Of a stretch of DNA of 64,000 bases, positions 10,092 through 52,010 are shown piece after piece. The notes beneath the pieces were generated by a model that saw only the letters and a program-made list of their open reading frames with translations, had not been told where the DNA came from and did no database searches. Source of the DNA: Collibacillus ludicampi (lineage in GTDB: Bacteria; Bacillota; Bacilli; Tumebacillales; BOQE01); contig NZ_BOQE01000001.1 in NCBI RefSeq assembly GCF_023705585.1, forward strand, positions 1,688,501 to 1,752,500, in the 5' to 3' direction. Numbering within the stretch: the first letter of the stretch is position 1; every line of letters starts with the position of its first letter. A program made the position numbers and the translations under genes.

Positions 10092-10444
10092 ATTGAGAAT
10101 AAGGTAGTCCCCCATGTCGCATGGGCGGTGCCATCATAGGATAAAAAATTTCTTGTACAGGATGAGAGATATAAAGCTAACCAATAAAACGGAGTGGCTT
10201 TTGGGTGGGTGTATCGCATTGCGGCGCAGAGGTAAGTTGAAGGTCGTTCCGCTTCCTATATACCGTTAAAAGGCATATGCTTTGCGCGTAATTGCGACTT
10301 TGGAGGTCGTCTTGCGACATTTGTTTTGTTTATCTTCCAAGCAAGACGCCCTCCACGGAGCATGAGCGCAAAGCATATGCCTCAATGACGCCCTTCTCCG
10401 AACCCAAGCGCAAAGCGATGCACCCACCCAAGCACTAGTTTTCT
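10092..10444 (-). repeat. Nested palindromic repeat, copy 1 (full length, reversed)
   Basis: This is one of three copies of an element seen also near 35.9 and 41.7 kb; this copy is on the - strand. The outer arms (10201-10223 and 10409-10431) match at 21 of 23 positions. A middle pair (10272-10287 with 10366-10381) is a perfect 16-bp inverted repeat, and an inner pair (10301-10315 with 10341-10355) matches at 14 of 15. A tail of about 100 bases (10098-10200) aligns with the tails of the other copies. It fills most of the gap between the tuf terminator and the rpsJ promoter. I see no plausible reading frame in it. Confidence 0.85.
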
Positions 10445-10515: not shown

Positions 10516-10560
10516 TTTGTATTGTTGGTCTTAGACTGCAATGATGCGAAAGGTTGCTGA

Positions 10561-10956
<396 letters not shown>

Positions 10957-35761: not shown

Positions 35762-35874
35762 ATTGTCACCTCATTTTGATGCATGTTTAGCCATATGGTT
35801 GATTTCCACAAGTTGATCAAGCTTTTAACACGGATGTGCTTTATAAAAGTGTTATGTTGAAAATTAGTGCTATC

Positions 35875-36270
35875 TTGAAAACTAGTGCTTGGGTGGGTGT
35901 ATCGCTTTGCGCTTGGGTTCGATGAAGGTCGTCTTTAGGGTATATGCTTTGCGCTCATGCTCCGTGGAGGTCGTCTCGCATGGAATTATGATCATCTGTT
36001 GCGAGACGACCTCCAAGGTCGCTATTACGCGCAAAGCATATACCCCTTATACAGCTAATGGATGCGGAACGACCTTCAACTCACCTCTGCGCCGCAAAGC
36101 GATACAACCCACCCAAAGCCACTCCGTTGATTGTGGCAAACTCAAACTTCTCTCCCACTCATCCGAAAGGAAGCGAGACGACCTCCAAAGAAGTCGCAGT
36201 CTTACGCAATGCATTACGCCCACCCAAGACATTTTTCATCCACTGATAACGCCGCTTGCGGTATAGGGGG
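35875..36270 (+). repeat. Nested palindromic repeat, copy 2 (full length)
   Basis: Same family as 10.1-10.4 kb. The outer arms are 35889-35911 and 36093-36116. A perfect 17-bp pair (35938-35954 with 36029-36045) encloses a perfect 16-bp pair (35965-35980 with 36000-36015) and a 19-base loop. The tail (36117-36270) aligns with those of copies 1 and 3 but contains an extra half-unit (about 36172-36226) repeating the inner right arm and ending in CCCACCCAAG. It lies between the divergent SLH gene and the cysH promoter. Confidence 0.88.
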
Positions 36271-36368: not shown

Positions 36369-36397
36369 TTGACGGAAGAATCAATCCGTAGTAAACT
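36369..36397 (+). promoter_or_regulatory. Sigma-A promoter of the sulfate assimilation operon
   Basis: TTGACG (36369-36374), a 17-base spacer and TAAACT (36392-36397), about 215 bases before cysH. AT-rich sequence with a GGAAT motif follows and could hold a CymR-type sulfur repressor site, but I cannot confirm it. Confidence 0.6.
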
Positions 36398-36457
36398 GAT
36401 AGCAATTATAATATTAATTCATATAAATTTAGTCGGAATAAAGTTCCCGTAACCGAG

Positions 36458-36553
36458 TGCCTGTAGCCGCAATACCCTATACATAGGCTAAGCGGTTTGT
36501 AACAGGCAAGTTAGAAATCAAGATGTCATGGATTGGCATCTGTGATTTTGCCT
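36458..36553 (+). promoter_or_regulatory. Structured cysH leader, candidate riboswitch or attenuator
   Basis: TGCCTGT (36458-36464) pairs with ACAGGCA (36502-36508) around CCGC/GCGG (36467-36470, 36492-36495) and CCTAT/ATAGG (36476-36480, 36483-36487). A second hairpin spans 36515-36548 (AGATGTC/GGCATCT extended by AAATCA/TGATTT). AGGCAA (36504-36509) can instead pair with TTGCCT (36548-36553), excluding the first helix. It does not match the SAM-I or T-box consensus as I know them. Confidence 0.5.
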
Positions 36554-36611
36554 ATTAGATAAGAAATGTTTATGATGATGATTTTAAAAAATTATGTAAG
36601 GAGTGTCAGCA

Positions 36612-37313
36612 ATGAGTCTGGAACAAACACAGATCGCACCTGAAACAGTTAAGGAATGGAATGTAGAATATGAAAGGAAAACACCTCAGGAGATTCTTCA
36701 ATTTGCGTTTTCAAAATTTGAAAGAATTGCATTTGCCTGTAGTTTCGGAGCGGAAGATGTGGCTCTTGTCGATATGATCGTCAAGATCAAACCGGATGCG
36801 CAGATCTTTTATCTGGACACCGATGTGTTATTCCCGGAAACCTATGATGTGATTCAGAAAATTGTGGATCGTTATCATCCTAATCTGATTCAGTATCGTC
36901 CGGCGTTAACACTCGAGGAACAAGCGGCACAATTCGGCGATGAGCTTTGGGCGAAAGACCCAAATGCGTGCTGCAACATCCGTAAGGTGGAGCCGTTGAC
37001 CAAAGCGCTCTCAAATCTTGATGCCTGGATCACGGGGATTCGCCGGGAACAGGCGCCTACCCGCGCGAATGCAGGCGTGATAGAAATCGATGCGAAATTT
37101 GGCCTGATCAAATTCAATCCTCTGGCTTTGTGGACAAATGACGATGTCTGGGCGTATATCAAAGAACATCAAGTACCGTACAACGTTTTGCATGATCAAG
37201 GATATCCGAGCATCGGATGCAAACACTGCACGCGTGCGGTGAAACCGGGTGAGGATCCAAGGGCAGGACGTTGGTCCGGATTTGCGAAAACGGAGTGCGG
37301 ACTGCACAAATAA
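36612..37313 (+). CDS. cysH: Assimilatory adenylyl-sulfate (APS) reductase
   Basis: 233 residues. It reduces APS to sulfite with thioredoxin. The PP-loop-type block FSFGAEDVALVD-like segment reads CSFGAEDVALVDM (about 38-50). The CC...CxxC cysteine set (ACCNIRKVEPL and GCKHCTRAV) is the [4Fe-4S] ligand pattern of APS reductases, and the catalytic cysteine is in KTECGLH. No APS kinase gene is present in the operon, consistent with APS as direct substrate. Start ATG after TAAGGAG. Confidence 0.93.
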   Translation: MSLEQTQIAPETVKEWNVEYERKTPQEILQFAFSKFERIAFACSFGAEDVALVDMIVKIKPDAQIFYLDTDVLFPETYDVIQKIVDRYHPNLIQYRPALTLEEQAAQFGDELWAKDPNACCNIRKVEPLTKALSNLDAWITGIRREQAPTRANAGVIEIDAKFGLIKFNPLALWTNDDVWAYIKEHQVPYNVLHDQGYPSIGCKHCTRAVKPGEDPRAGRWSGFAKTECGLHK

Positions 37314-37376: not shown

Positions 37377-38138
37377 ATGGATTTTAGTGTTTCGTTTGGT
37401 GGTTTTGTCGTCGGGCTGCTGATCGGTATGACGGGTATGGGTGGAGGTCTTGTCATGACACCCATGCTGATTTTTCTCTTTGGTGTGTCCCCCTCTGTAG
37501 CCATCGGCACAGATCTCGTCTATATGTCTATCACTAAAATGGTGGGCGCATGGCAACACTGGCGGCAGAAAACGATCGATTTTGTCGTTGTCAAATATCT
37601 TTCTTACGGAAGTATCCCGGGGGCTCTGCTGGGTGTGGGGACATTGGCTCTGTTGCAACACTCGTTAGGGAAATCCGGGAATGCCGTCATCGGAAAACTG
37701 TTGGGATTGTCCTATCTGTTGGTCGCGGGTGTGATGGTCTGGCGCATTCTCATGCAGAAGTCGAACAGAAGGCCGCAGGAAGGTGTACGACCGGCCGCTT
37801 ATAAGCTGGTGATTCTCGGGCTTGTCGGCGGTTTTCTCGTTGGGCTGACTTCTGTTGGCAGCGGTACCTTGTTCATGGCTGTGTTGGTGATGATCTATCC
37901 TGTGGCGACGGCGAAACTGGTTGGCACCGATATTGTCCAAGCGGTGCTGGTAACTGGAGTGGCCGGACTCGCTCACATGGCGGCCGGAACTGTCAACTTC
38001 CCACTCGTCGGCTCCCTGTTGATCGGGTCGATCCCGGGTATCTTGATCGGCAGCCGGTTGGTCATGAAGTTGCCTGAATTGGTGGTTCGCACCTGTCTGG
38101 TTTTGATGTTGTTTTTCTCGGGGATGAAATTACTGTAG
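37377..38138 (+). CDS. TauE/SafE (TSUP) family permease, probable sulfate or sulfite transporter
   Basis: 253 residues with about eight membrane segments and the family glycine motifs GMTGMGGGLVMTP (about 18-30) and GLTSVGSGTLFMA (about 157-169). TSUP proteins move sulfur oxyanions or organosulfonates. Its place between cysH and sat points to sulfate uptake or sulfite export. Start ATG nine bases after AGGAAGG. Confidence 0.85.
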   Translation: MDFSVSFGGFVVGLLIGMTGMGGGLVMTPMLIFLFGVSPSVAIGTDLVYMSITKMVGAWQHWRQKTIDFVVVKYLSYGSIPGALLGVGTLALLQHSLGKSGNAVIGKLLGLSYLLVAGVMVWRILMQKSNRRPQEGVRPAAYKLVILGLVGGFLVGLTSVGSGTLFMAVLVMIYPVATAKLVGTDIVQAVLVTGVAGLAHMAAGTVNFPLVGSLLIGSIPGILIGSRLVMKLPELVVRTCLVLMLFFSGMKLL

Positions 38139-38159: not shown

Positions 38160-39335
38160 ATGAAGGAAAAAGACTTAATTGCTCCGCATGGAGGCGTTCT
38201 GATCGACCGTCTCTTGACAGGGGCGGAACGGGAGAAGGAACTTGAGAAGGCAAAGACTTATAAAAAAGTGGAGATCGATACATTCGCCTTGTCAGATCTA
38301 GAACTGATCGGAATCGGCGCATTTTCGCCCCTGACCGGTTTTATGAGCCGGCAGGATTATGAATCGGTTCTTCAAACGATGCACTTGTCTACCGGTGAAG
38401 TATGGAGCCTTCCAGTCACGTTGCCTGTGACGGAAGAGACTGCGGAAGGCATTCGTGAAGGCGAGCATGTGGCACTCGTTCATCAAGGAACGATCTATGG
38501 GACGTTGGAGGTGAGAGAAAAGTACCGGGTGGATAAGCGACATGAAGCGGAATGTGTCTATCGCACGACGGAGGAAGCACATCCCGGGGTGGCGAAATTG
38601 TACGCACGGCCTGACATCTATTTGGCTGGACCCGTGTACGTGTTAAACCGCAAAAAACCGGAACAGTTTGCCGAGTATTATCTCGATCCGAAAGAGACGC
38701 GCGCCTTGTTCCGCGCGAAGGGATGGCGAACGGTTGTCGGTTTCCAGACACGAAATCCGGTGCACCGGGCTCATGAATATATTCAAAAATGCGCACTCGA
38801 AATCGTTGATGGCCTCTTTCTAAATCCGCTGGTCGGTGAAACGAAAGCGGATGACATTCCCGCGGACGTACGGATGCGTTCCTATCAGGTCTTGTTGGAA
38901 AACTATTATCCGAAAGAACGGGTGGCGTTTGCTTGTTTTCCTGCCGCGATGCGCTATGCGGGTCCACGTGAGGCGGTCTTTCACGCCATGGTGCGAAAGA
39001 ATTATGGGTGCACGCATTTTATCGTCGGCCGGGATCATGCGGGTGTCGGCAATTATTACGGAACGTATGACGCCCAGAAAATATTCGGTGAGTTTACCGC
39101 CGAAGAATTAGGGATTACGCCCCTGTTTTTTGAACACAGTTTTTACTGCAGAAAATGCGCGAGTATGGCATCGACCAAGACATGTCCGCATGATGAGAAA
39201 GATCGTTTGATGCTCTCCGGTACGAAAGTTCGTGAGAAACTGCGCAATGGAGAAATGTTGCCGCCGGAATTCAGTCGTCCGGAAGTAGCGGCTGTGTTGA
39301 TTGCAGGATTGCGCGAATTTGCGACTGTGAAATGA
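38160..39335 (+). CDS. sat: Sulfate adenylyltransferase (ATP sulfurylase)
   Basis: 391 residues. It activates sulfate with ATP to APS, the substrate of the cysH product. The active-site [12 protein letters not shown] (HxxH, about residue 200) and [12 protein letters not shown] are present. There is no fused APS kinase domain. AGAGGAGG site; last gene of the operon. Confidence 0.96.
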
Positions 39336-41689: not shown

Positions 41690-41918
41690 TTTGAAAATGA
41701 GTGCTTGGGTGGGTGTATCGCTTTGCGCTTGGGTTCGATGAAGGTCGTCCCGCCCGGATTCTTAATAGAGGTTGCGGAACGACCTTCAACTCACCTCTGC
41801 GCTGCAAAGCGATACAACCCACCCAAAAGATACTCCGTTGCATAAGGCAGCTTAAATCTCTCTTCCCGCACAAGAAACTTTTCATCCTCTGATGGCGCCG
41901 CTTGCGGTAGATACCCAA
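41690..41918 (+). repeat. Nested palindromic repeat, copy 3 (short, lacks inner module)
   Basis: Outer arms 41705-41727 and about 41804-41826 match those of copies 1 and 2, as does the next pair GAAGGTCGT/ACGACCTTC. The central hairpin module of about 100 bases is absent, leaving a 122-base core. The tail (41828-41915, ACTCCGTTG through CGCCGCTTGCGG) aligns with copies 1 and 2. It lies between the cdaR terminator and glmM; the rest of this gap (to 42120) shows only a weak AT-rich promoter region. Confidence 0.85.
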
Positions 41919-43482: not shown

Positions 43483-43689
43483 CCACTCCTCACTTGTGAT
43501 GCATAAGATACCGATAAGGGGGTGATGTCAAGGAGAGGAGAATGTAAAGGGCAATCAGTGATGAATAAGACGAAATTGGAAATGGGAGAGAAAGGGGCTG
43601 TTTGGATCGAACGAACGAAAAGAACATGTTTACAAAGAAGGAGATGCAAGATTTGGAAGTTTTCGTATGAAGGATCGAAGTTTTTTCGG

Positions 43690-43860
43690 TCTAGCGCCAG
43701 GCCTGCGAGTGAGAGTCTTGCAGGTGACGCGGAGGAGGTTGGCGAATGTTCGGCGGGTGCCTCCCGGCGGTTTCCCCCTGCCGCAAGAGTTGTCTGAAAA
43801 CCACTGGGTGACCGGTGGGACAAGGACGCTCAGGGGTCGATACGGAATGGGAACTCGCGC
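43690..43860 (+). ncRNA. glmS ribozyme: glmS ribozyme (glucosamine-6-phosphate riboswitch)
   Basis: The conserved core is readable: AGCGCCAG at the cleavage site (cut expected between A43693 and G43694), a P2 stem, GTGACG then GAGGAGGTTGGCGAA (compare the known GUUGACGAGGAUGG...AUCGAA), TTCGGCGGGTGCCTCCCGG, then CCGCAAGAG and the 3' ACCACTGGGTGACCGGTGG stem followed by GACAAGG. The RNA cuts itself when glucosamine-6-phosphate binds, silencing glmS. The 3' limit is approximate; a GGCAA/TTGCC pair with a T-run (about 43877-43922) and an ATCCTT/AAGGAT hairpin follow before glmS. Confidence 0.93.
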
Positions 43861-46691: not shown

Positions 46692-47056
46692 AAGGTCAGT
46701 GTACATTTATTTTTTATGCTTACAACTGGACAGGTCTTTTGGACCTTCCCTGCTTTAGCCGACGAAGTTAGCTGACGGGTAGGATGGCAGAGAAGTGCTT
46801 CACTCATCCCTCCTGAAATCCTCAGGATTAACCCCACTTGATTGGTTCCTCCGCTCTTGGCTTTCACCAAGATTAGGCCGTGATTCAATTGTTGATATGA
46901 TCATACTCCTTATTCAAACAGTATGCACGAGCGTATTTTTCACAAAAAAGACTTATTTTTTACCTCAATCCGTAATTAGACATAATTAAAGATATTCAAT
47001 CATACAGTATCTCATTTTTTGTTGTATCGCTATCATTGCGGGACGGTAACGAATGG
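46692..47056. other. Intergenic stretch, no gene recognised
   Basis: A minus-strand frame (46649-46888) gives a short peptide with no start site or domain and may be the degraded end of a mobile-element gene. The rest is AT-rich with nothing I can name. Confidence 0.4.
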
Positions 47057-49397: not shown

Positions 49398-50011
49398 CCG
49401 TACCTCTTGTTGAAATGAAGGAGGCATAAATTCAAGATTGCCAATGAGATGATTTGTATGAATATTCACTCCTCAGCAGCGGCTGTTGTGGTTGGGCAGG
49501 TTAGCGAAAGATGACTTGATTAACTGTGAGAGCCGATATTATAGATTCACCTTTAACAAAAATCCAGGGTGTTTGCCATGACATGAGATGGGAAGGCATT
49601 TTATTCGGTGTGCCCGGCATGGGCGTTGTCTATAGGGTGGAAGTCCCGAATGGCGAAGGTAGCAGTAGCCATAGCTCAAGGCAAGGGTGTCCGCCGCGAG
49701 GCGGAATCTGAAGGAAGCTGGCGGCAAACCTCCGGCCTGAGGAACACGAACTTCATATAAGGCTAGCGATCGTTGGATGAGTCTGCCGAACAAGACGAAG
49801 TCCTTGCTACCGAAGGCGATCGAGAGTAAATGAAGCAGGTAGATGGAGGGAAAGACAGCGCTCTTACCCGGGGAGGCCTGCCGGCGCGCCGATTCAATTG
49901 GTAACCCGTACCGCGAGGTACGGCTGAACCGGCAGGAGTCAGCAGAGGCCATAGTACCTATAAGGAGACGTCTAAACAGGGAAGGGCCGAACATGATTGT
50001 GAGGGTTGTTC

Positions 50012-50166
50012 ATGGCTAGTTCGAGAGAAGAACAAAGAAAGCAGAAAATCCCGAAGGGGAGCTATCTTCAGGAGGAAGCAGTGAATCTGCGGGGGACTGG
50101 AGAAGCGCCGAGTTCTCCTCCGGCACGACCCAAGAACCAACCCGCGAAGTACGTCAGGATTTCCTG
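50012..50166 (+). CDS. Short intron ORF coupled to the reverse transcriptase
   Basis: A 51-codon frame starting MASSREEQRKQKIPKG ends at a TGA that overlaps the next ATG (TGATG). Similar leader peptide sequence precedes the reverse transcriptase in related introns; either it is translationally coupled or a frameshift separates the two. Confidence 0.45.
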
Positions 50167-50830
50167 ATGGAGCAAGTGGTAAACCGCGAGAATATGCTCA
50201 TGGCCCTGCACCGTGTCGAGAGAAACAAAGGAGCGGCAGGAGTTGACGGAATGGAGATAAAATCCCTTCGACCATTCTTGCTCGACAACTGGACGCATAT
50301 CCGAAACCAACTTCTCAACGGAACCTATCAACCGAAACCGGTCCGTCGAGTCGAAATCCCGAAACCAGACGGAGGAATACGGTTGCTAGGAATTCCAACG
50401 GTGCTGGACCGCTTGATCCAGCAGGCTCTTCTACAAGTCTTAACCCCGATCTTTGATCCCACGTTCTCGTCGCAGAGCTACGGCTTTCGCCCAGGGCGCA
50501 AAGCGCATATGGCCGTGAAACAAGCCCAGTCCTACATACGAGAAGGATACCGATATGTAGTAGACATGGACTTAGAGAAGTTCTTTGATCGAGTGAACCA
50601 CGACATCCTTATGGCGAAGCTTGCGAGAAAGATCATGGACAAACGCATTCTACGACTGATTCGTCGTTACCTACAGGCGGGAGTGATGATCAACGGATGT
50701 TGTGTAGCGACCGAAGAGGGAACGCCGCAAGGCGGCCCATTAAGTCCGCTCCTCGCGAATGTCATGCTGGATGAACTTGATAAAGAACTGACAAAAAGAG
50801 GCCATCGATTTGTGCGCTACGCTGATGATT
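50167..50830 (+). pseudogene. ltrA: Group II intron 1 reverse transcriptase, N-terminal part
   Basis: 221 codons, MEQVVNRENMLMALHRVERNKGAAGVDG, with RT blocks IPKPDGGIRLLGIPTV, SYGFRPGRKAH, DLEKFFDRVNHD and GTPQGGPLSPLLANV. It stops at the catalytic YADD motif, where intron 2 is inserted after GCTGATGATT. The C-terminal domain survives at 52011-52244. Confidence 0.88.
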
Positions 50831-52010
50831 GTGCGCCACGAAGGCGTAGAGCTAGTTGAAAGCTCGAAGGCCATGCTTAATCGAAGATGAGGGTGGGCCC
50901 CTCGGAGCCGCCATGCAGGTGGAGGCTTCAAACCACCGTAAGCTGCTATGGTCAAAAGCCATGGTAGTGAGCGTTACGGAAAAGGCGTAGCATGACTTCG
51001 TCAGGTGTGTGCCAATGGAGACGAACACAAGTGAACCACTGATAAAGTGTCGAAAGCGTAAGGATGTCATCAAAACCGGGAGGGAGTCGTTAGCCCGGGA
51101 TAAGTCTGGAGGATACCTGCTTACTGTCCAGATGGTGGCCGACATGGAGGTGGCGTGAACGTGGCACAGGCTTCGATTAGGAACGTGGGAACCTGCATTT
51201 CGATGTTAAGGGAAAACTCCAAGTGGAAGAAACGCAAGGACGAAAGTACCAATGCGATATGCAGGGGCGGAACAACCCGTAGTAGTCATGAAACTTCGTA
51301 ATGGAAGCGGAGCGAAGGGGTTGTGTTATCCAGTTTTGAACAGTGGTCAACCGCAAGGGAGGAGCCAATGAGCAAAACAAAGTCTTACGAAATCTCCAAA
51401 CATGTAGTACTCGAAGCGTTCCAAAGAGTAAAAGCCAACGGAGGAGCAGCCGGAGTAGACAACGTCAGCCTGGAGAAGTTCGAGTCAAATCTGAAAAATA
51501 ACCTTTATAAGATTTGGAACAGAATGTCGTCCGGGAGCTACTTTCCACCCCCCGGTGAAGGCGGTAGAAATACCCAAGAAAACGGGAGGTACGCGCATTC
51601 TCGGAATACCCACTGTGGCGGACCGAGTAGCGCAAATGGTCGTTAAAATCCATTTCGAGCCGAAGGTGGAGCCACACTTTCACCCGGATTCCTATGGATA
51701 TCGACCAGGAAAGTCGGCAGCAGATGCACTTGCAGTTACTCGAAAAAGATGTTGGAAGTATGATTGGGTGTTAGAATTTGACATCAAGGGGTTGTTCGAC
51801 AACATTGACCACGAACTATTGATGAAGGCCGTCCGCAAACACACGGACAATCCATGGGTGATTCTCTACATTGAGAGATGGCTAAAGGCACCATTTGAGA
51901 TGCCAGATGGAACCGTTGTGGAGCGGACAAAGGGCACACCGCAAGGCGGTGTAATAAGTCCTGTACTTGCAAATCTGTTTCTTCACTATGCGTTTGACAA
52001 ATGGATGCGA
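50831..52010 (+). mobile_element. Group II intron 2 nested in intron 1 (3' part lost)
   Basis: GTGCGCCACGAAGGCG (50831) is a group II 5' end placed exactly inside the YADD codons of the host reverse transcriptase. About 530 bases of ribozyme sequence precede its own reverse transcriptase. Domains V and VI are missing, since the element joins the C-terminal part of the intron 1 reverse transcriptase near 52005-52015. Confidence 0.8.
51368..52010 (+). pseudogene. ltrA: Group II intron 2 reverse transcriptase, frameshifted and truncated
   Basis: It starts MSKTKSYEISKHVVLEAFQRVKANGGAAGVD behind GGGAGG. A run of six C (51548-51553) shifts the frame after SGSYFPPP; removing one C restores PVKAVEIPKKTGGTRILG. 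The second part has SYGYRPGKSAADAL, EFDIKGLFDNIDHE and GTPQGGVISPVLANL, then leaves the family before YADD at the deletion point. Confidence 0.85.

Follow-up and report, generated by a model that had tools for sequence, protein, structure and literature searches.

Stacked control sites, probably acting on transcription, in the cysH leader of Collibacillus ludicampi

In Bacillales, CymR of the Rrf2 family acts with CysK to repress cysteine genes, and O-acetylserine relieves this repression (PMC3828012, PMC2940859); putative CymR boxes have been placed upstream of cysH in B. cereus (PMC3519770). S-box (SAM-I) elements likewise occupy the leader before cysH in Bacillus, serving the same pathway, and were found here in L094, L095, L101 and L111. 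LysR-type tandem operators, as for CysL, YtlI, CmbR and relatives in sulfur metabolism, precede sulfur genes and pair two T-N11-A palindromes at a distance of about two helical turns. The cysH leader analysed here resembles the CymR regulon of Bacillales in operator type, placement near the cysH promoter, the CymR equivalog of its genome and the pathway, but differs from it in carrying, downstream of the operator, two additional conserved modules that are common to cysT and sbp operons. On predicted binding, it belongs under CymR-type control plus these two further modules. Unlike the SAM-I leaders, it has no SAM-I match, aptamer or U-tract terminator.

We analysed a 64,000-nucleotide stretch of C. 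ludicampi DNA (the window), taken from a 4.09-Mb genome that was the sole member of its family among the genomes compared. Its relatives within Tumebacillales include Tumebacillus species and genomes with CysH up to 78% identical. Downstream of cysH at the locus come a TauE/SafE permease gene and then sat. The TTGACG start of the promoter-like sequence, identified by consensus scan, also occurs in related cysH leaders, and the Shine-Dalgarno sequence, recognised from its letters, was largely unpaired in the predicted ensemble. The features are as follows:

36369–36397, + strand: promoter-like TTGACG-17-TAAACT
36598–36603, + strand: Shine-Dalgarno sequence AAGGAG
36612–37313, + strand: cysH, phosphoadenylyl-sulfate/adenylyl-sulfate reductase (NCBIfam NF002537 and TIGR02055, above cut-off)
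37377–38138, + strand: TauE/SafE permease gene (Pfam PF01925)
38160–39335, + strand: sat, sulfate adenylyltransferase (NCBIfam NF003166)

Elsewhere in the window, Rfam matches above threshold marked an S10-Clostridia-type ribosomal leader (10533–10631, + strand), a glmS ribozyme (43682–43841, + strand) and a c-di-AMP riboswitch (46743–46889, − strand), and group II intron RNA domains (RF02001, RF01998, RF01999) lie at 49690–51006 on the + strand. A repeated element of about 60–260 bp, possibly a miniature mobile or REP-like element, occupies intergenic DNA at 35850–36260, 10188–10443 and 41691–41906, its pieces being 79–97% identical and partly inverted.

The initial annotation had proposed a sulfur-responsive RNA switch before cysH, built from a nested hairpin, a second hairpin and an alternative pairing of the strand AGGCAA. 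Both hairpins are present in the sequence:

36458–36508, + strand: hairpin 1, nested, with TGCCTGT (36458–36464) pairing with ACAGGCA (36502–36508) and an inner AGCCGC with GCGGTT; pairing conserved in part only
36514–36549, + strand: hairpin 2, 15 pairs with one bulge
36504–36509 with 36548–36553, + strand: alternative pairing AGGCAA/TTGCCT, possible and not conserved

We compared predicted folding energies with those of dinucleotide shuffles. The region spanning both hairpins (36444–36560) reached −36.9 kcal/mol, the shuffles averaging −25.3 kcal/mol (z −3.6, 0/500), and excesses were also seen for hairpin 1 alone (z −3.2, 3/500) and hairpin 2 alone (z −4.1, 2/500). Over the whole 243-nt leader the excess was weak (z −1.3). 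The AGGCAA strand can indeed pair with TTGCCT, as had been claimed, but the two-state switch drawn from it did not hold up: the alternative pairing was about 5 kcal/mol less stable, was predicted to form with probability 0.002 in the full leader, had no counterpart in related cysH leaders and was not enriched across eight cysH leaders (p 0.63). A 6-nt complement of this kind arose in 1.4% of shuffles, and the hybridisation energy was unremarkable (p 0.43). Hairpin 2 was also considered as a terminator and set aside; it has no U tract, and the U tracts in some of the relatives' leaders come with no common hairpin.

The leader was then compared with those of relatives. A BLASTN search of 61 genomes with the leader returned no leader homologue, so leaders were gathered through the CysH protein and compared by motif; their layout was common, and their sequence was not alignable. 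As the initial annotation had stated, the window leader matched neither SAM-I nor T-box, with no Rfam 15 match at the gathering threshold and only chance hits at E up to 5, and no SAM-I, T-box or other Rfam family was detected in the relatives' leaders at E up to 3. The folding z was near zero in most leaders, although L040, L048 and L191 had strong hairpins as well. Complementarity of the hairpin arms was assessed by duplex energies against shuffled downstream sequence and combined as Fisher p values, which ignore relatedness. With relatedness so ignored, the arms in cysH leaders were modestly more complementary than shuffles (p 7e-4 with the window, 0.0023 without it), and complementarity was absent from cysT leaders (p 0.65) though these kept the sequence motif. 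In the G010 cysH leader, L220, 14 nt separate the 31-nt motif from the tandem operator (both described below), leaving no room for the 3' arm of hairpin 1. Helices with compensatory changes, as a riboswitch would show, were not found in related leaders, apart from weak support among the cysH leaders alone. Lack of helix conservation in related cysH leaders had been set beforehand as the observation that would speak against the switch, and this is largely what we found.

A pattern and covariance model of the best-looking common element revealed an extra copy before cysT, a sulfate permease gene. The covariance model R1, built from eight trimmed leaders, found Tumebacillus and Effusibacillus-like leaders; it did not find the window leader, nor anything convincing elsewhere, and a strict GGAAC pattern gave hits at control level only across 398 genomes of the phylum. 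We also considered a new riboswitch whose P2/P4 hairpin would carry GGAAC and AUAUSUU, and dropped it because the cysT leaders kept the motif without the helices.

These results bear on the reading of the leader as a lineage-specific structured RNA, either a riboswitch or a protein-bound RNA, in which hairpin 1 would present the conserved AAUAY loop with GNMAC unpaired on its 5' side, and binding would alter access to downstream sequence. The folding excess of the window hairpins, the strong hairpins in L040, L048 and L191 and the arm complementarity in cysH leaders are in its favour, but the cysT leaders that retain the motif and not the helices, the missing space in L220, the poorer and unconserved alternative pairing, the lack of any Rfam match and the failure of R1 to reach the window make it unlikely. 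Slightly less probable would be a new class of sulfur-sensing leader RNA, confined to Tumebacillales, in which the 31-nt element and hairpin control cysH, cysT and sbp jointly with CymR and a LysR-type operator. We likewise weighed a cysteine T-box or leader-peptide attenuator, given that GGAAC in the relatives looks like the core of the Cys T-box in AATTAGAGTGGAACC (PMC2940859) and that short frames with Cys codons occur in some leaders (L040, L041), such as the L041 frame ending NCLC. This reading is strongly disfavoured and very improbable: no Rfam T-box match appeared even at E up to 3, in L042 the stretch from start to motif is too short for Stem I, U is not conserved immediately ahead of GGA, the window itself has GTAAC, and by inspection the Cys-codon frames were not common to the leaders.

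The hairpins are real in the window sequence, but they are not what is conserved and are best read as lineage-specific; they may influence message stability or be incidental. What is conserved are sequence motifs at fixed spacing that appear to behave like DNA sites, and a metabolite-sensing RNA switch is not supported. Of the original proposal, the sulfur-linked control region survives, through a CymR-type operator and two modules common to sulfate-transport operons, and the RNA switch does not, as its helices are only weakly conserved in cysH leaders and not in cysT leaders, and its two-state pairing is not conserved. An RNA switch read from a single sequence, though convincing, can dissolve on comparison with relatives.

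To locate the conserved modules, we scanned the window with matrices whose training sites were aligned by eye. All three modules ranked first among about 128,000 window positions, with 0/2000 shuffles each reaching the score. The first lies between the −10 hexamer and the hairpins:

36418–36441, unstranded: CymR-type operator TTCATATAAATTTAGTCGGAATAA (matrix from 20 other leaders)

This operator scored 24.8 bits (rank 1 of 127,954 positions, mononucleotide shuffles). The genome encodes a CymR equivalog (NF047409, 198 bits against a cut-off of 195) adjoining a cysteine desulfurase gene, so that both an operator near the promoter and its predicted regulator are present, as CymR control would require. 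In the same genome, a CymR-type operator match and a hairpin also occur at G000 C1:319302–319329 (L005), in the leader of an O-acetylhomoserine sulfhydrylase-like gene (named by eye).

The second module overlaps hairpin 1, whose 5' arm and loop fall within it:

36449–36479, + strand: 31-bp element GNMAC-N17-WATAYNYTR (GTAACCGAGTGCCTGTAGCCGCAATACCCTA), defined by conserved columns (matrix trained without the window)
36473–36478, + strand: −10-like TACCCT within the 31-bp element

The fuller consensus was GNMACNC-N4-C-N4-GNC-N3-WATAYNYTR, with no length change in 15/16 aligned leaders. The window copy ranked first of 127,940 positions at 11.6 bits, by a small margin (next window hit 10.8 bits) and below all training members but one, and it stands in the expected place and register. 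Within Tumebacillales, the element recurs before cysH, cysT and genes of sbp operons, and the matrix extended with the window copy recovered an untrained copy in L220, the cysH leader of a genome with a broken cysH frame. There, the terminator of the upstream gene ends about 50 nt before the element and no canonical promoter is visible; L190–L192 are similar. This proximity to a terminator without a canonical promoter and the unvarying T, A and T of TAYNYT suggest that the 31-bp element is a second promoter, with GNMAC as the −35-like and TAYNYT as the −10-like part. The arrangement would recall tandem promoters with an activator-dependent second promoter, since GNMAC and TAYNYT keep a near-constant spacing like that of −35 and −10 sequences and the three invariant letters of TAYNYT match a sigma-A −10. 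Unlike a plain promoter, the spacer carries conserved C12, G17 and C19.

The third module comprises two palindromes and, in most leaders, stops a short way upstream of the Shine-Dalgarno sequence:

36559–36595, unstranded: tandem palindromic operator ATAAGAAATGTTTAT-N7-ATTTTAAAAAATTAT, 22-bp repeat (matrix trained without the window)

In all aligned copies, the consensus was two ATWAG-N5-CTWAT palindromes with starts exactly 22 bp apart. The window site scored 31.4 bits (rank 1 of 127,928; best shuffle ≤17.9) and departed from the consensus at 4/20 letters. By pattern search, the tandem site precedes cysH, cysT and DUF2292-sbp operons in Tumebacillales, and in the genome of the window it also lies before sbp (L216). 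Four contexts outside the order were read, and only one involved a sulfur gene: L257, from another family, in which the site is directly upstream of the TTTACA-17-TATAAT promoter of a TauE gene. With that position upstream of the promoter, the L257 site must act as DNA, and its geometry would be that of a LysR-type activator. The two T-N11-A dyads about two turns apart are likewise those of LysR-type operators in sulfur metabolism. The placement differs, however: the site precedes the controlled promoter in L257, and in the window and its order mates it is downstream of the promoter, just before the Shine-Dalgarno sequence. For a LysR-type site, a position downstream of the start is unusual. 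In L200, the second cysT leader of G012, we also observed a terminator-like hairpin (CCCTCGTCTCGGCGAGGGCCTTTTT) downstream of the CymR box and immediately ahead of the tandem operator at 1416, occupying the place taken by the 31-bp element or U tracts in other leaders.

The modules were not present in every leader. The short Tumebacillus cysH leaders L042, L043 and L045, plus L050, lack the tandem site, and L051 and L200 have the tandem site without the 31-bp element. No regulator gene was linked to either module, and no description of either was found in the open-access literature searched. It could be argued that the CymR operator alone matters, the other two modules being relics or unrelated and the hairpins incidental; it is the strongest site of a known type, and only CymR-type operators precede cysH in Paenibacillus, L050 and L058. 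We consider this doubtful, because several sulfate operons of the order carry the other two modules upstream at exact spacing, and because these modules are the window's top matches.

The leader is probably a stacked transcription-control region of a sulfate-assimilation regulon, in which a promoter repressed by CymR is joined by a second element, promoter-like or operator, and by a tandem operator of LysR type. In such a region, CymR at 36418–36441 would repress the sigma-A promoter at 36369–36397 when cysteine is plentiful, sensing cysteine sufficiency through O-acetylserine with CysK, by analogy with Bacillus subtilis. The 31-bp element would most likely serve as an activator-dependent or alternative-sigma second promoter, or as a binding site for another regulator. 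At the palindromes (36559–36595), a LysR-type protein would most likely coordinate cysH with sulfate uptake through cysT and sbp, and at the window site it would act by roadblock or repression. If this is right, at least three stacked sites control sulfate assimilation in Tumebacillales, two of them apparently undescribed (the 31-bp element and the tandem palindrome beside the ribosome-binding site). These two would then define a testable regulon of cysH, cysT and sbp and point to a further regulator.

Separately, a small RNA motif emerged from the comparison, organised as outer stem, GA, 4-bp stem, loop ACNA(A), 4-bp stem, A and outer stem. It is absent from the window and has no Rfam 15 match. 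In Bacillaceae, Planococcaceae and Tumebacillales, the gene that follows the motif is sbp, cysT or cysH, being cysH in several Bacillaceae and Planococcaceae, and a DUF2292 (OscA-like) gene often lies immediately upstream of the motif. Its loci are as follows:

L216:1556 (genome of the window, before sbp); L080:2889; L080 at 4040, reverse strand
L083, L094, L097, L101, L106 (both strands), L111, L190–L192, L194 and L195

It looks like an unregistered attenuator (antiterminator/terminator) of sulfate assimilation, and it is a far better candidate for a sulfur RNA switch than the cysH leader of the window. Its covariation was strong, with a score of 0.596 compared to 0.302 (0/500 shuffles), slid controls being far lower, and its 3' strand doubles as the foot of a strong intrinsic terminator, with energies of −22 to −46 kcal/mol in 12/14 cases, the other two (L080) having been measured on a shortened terminator.
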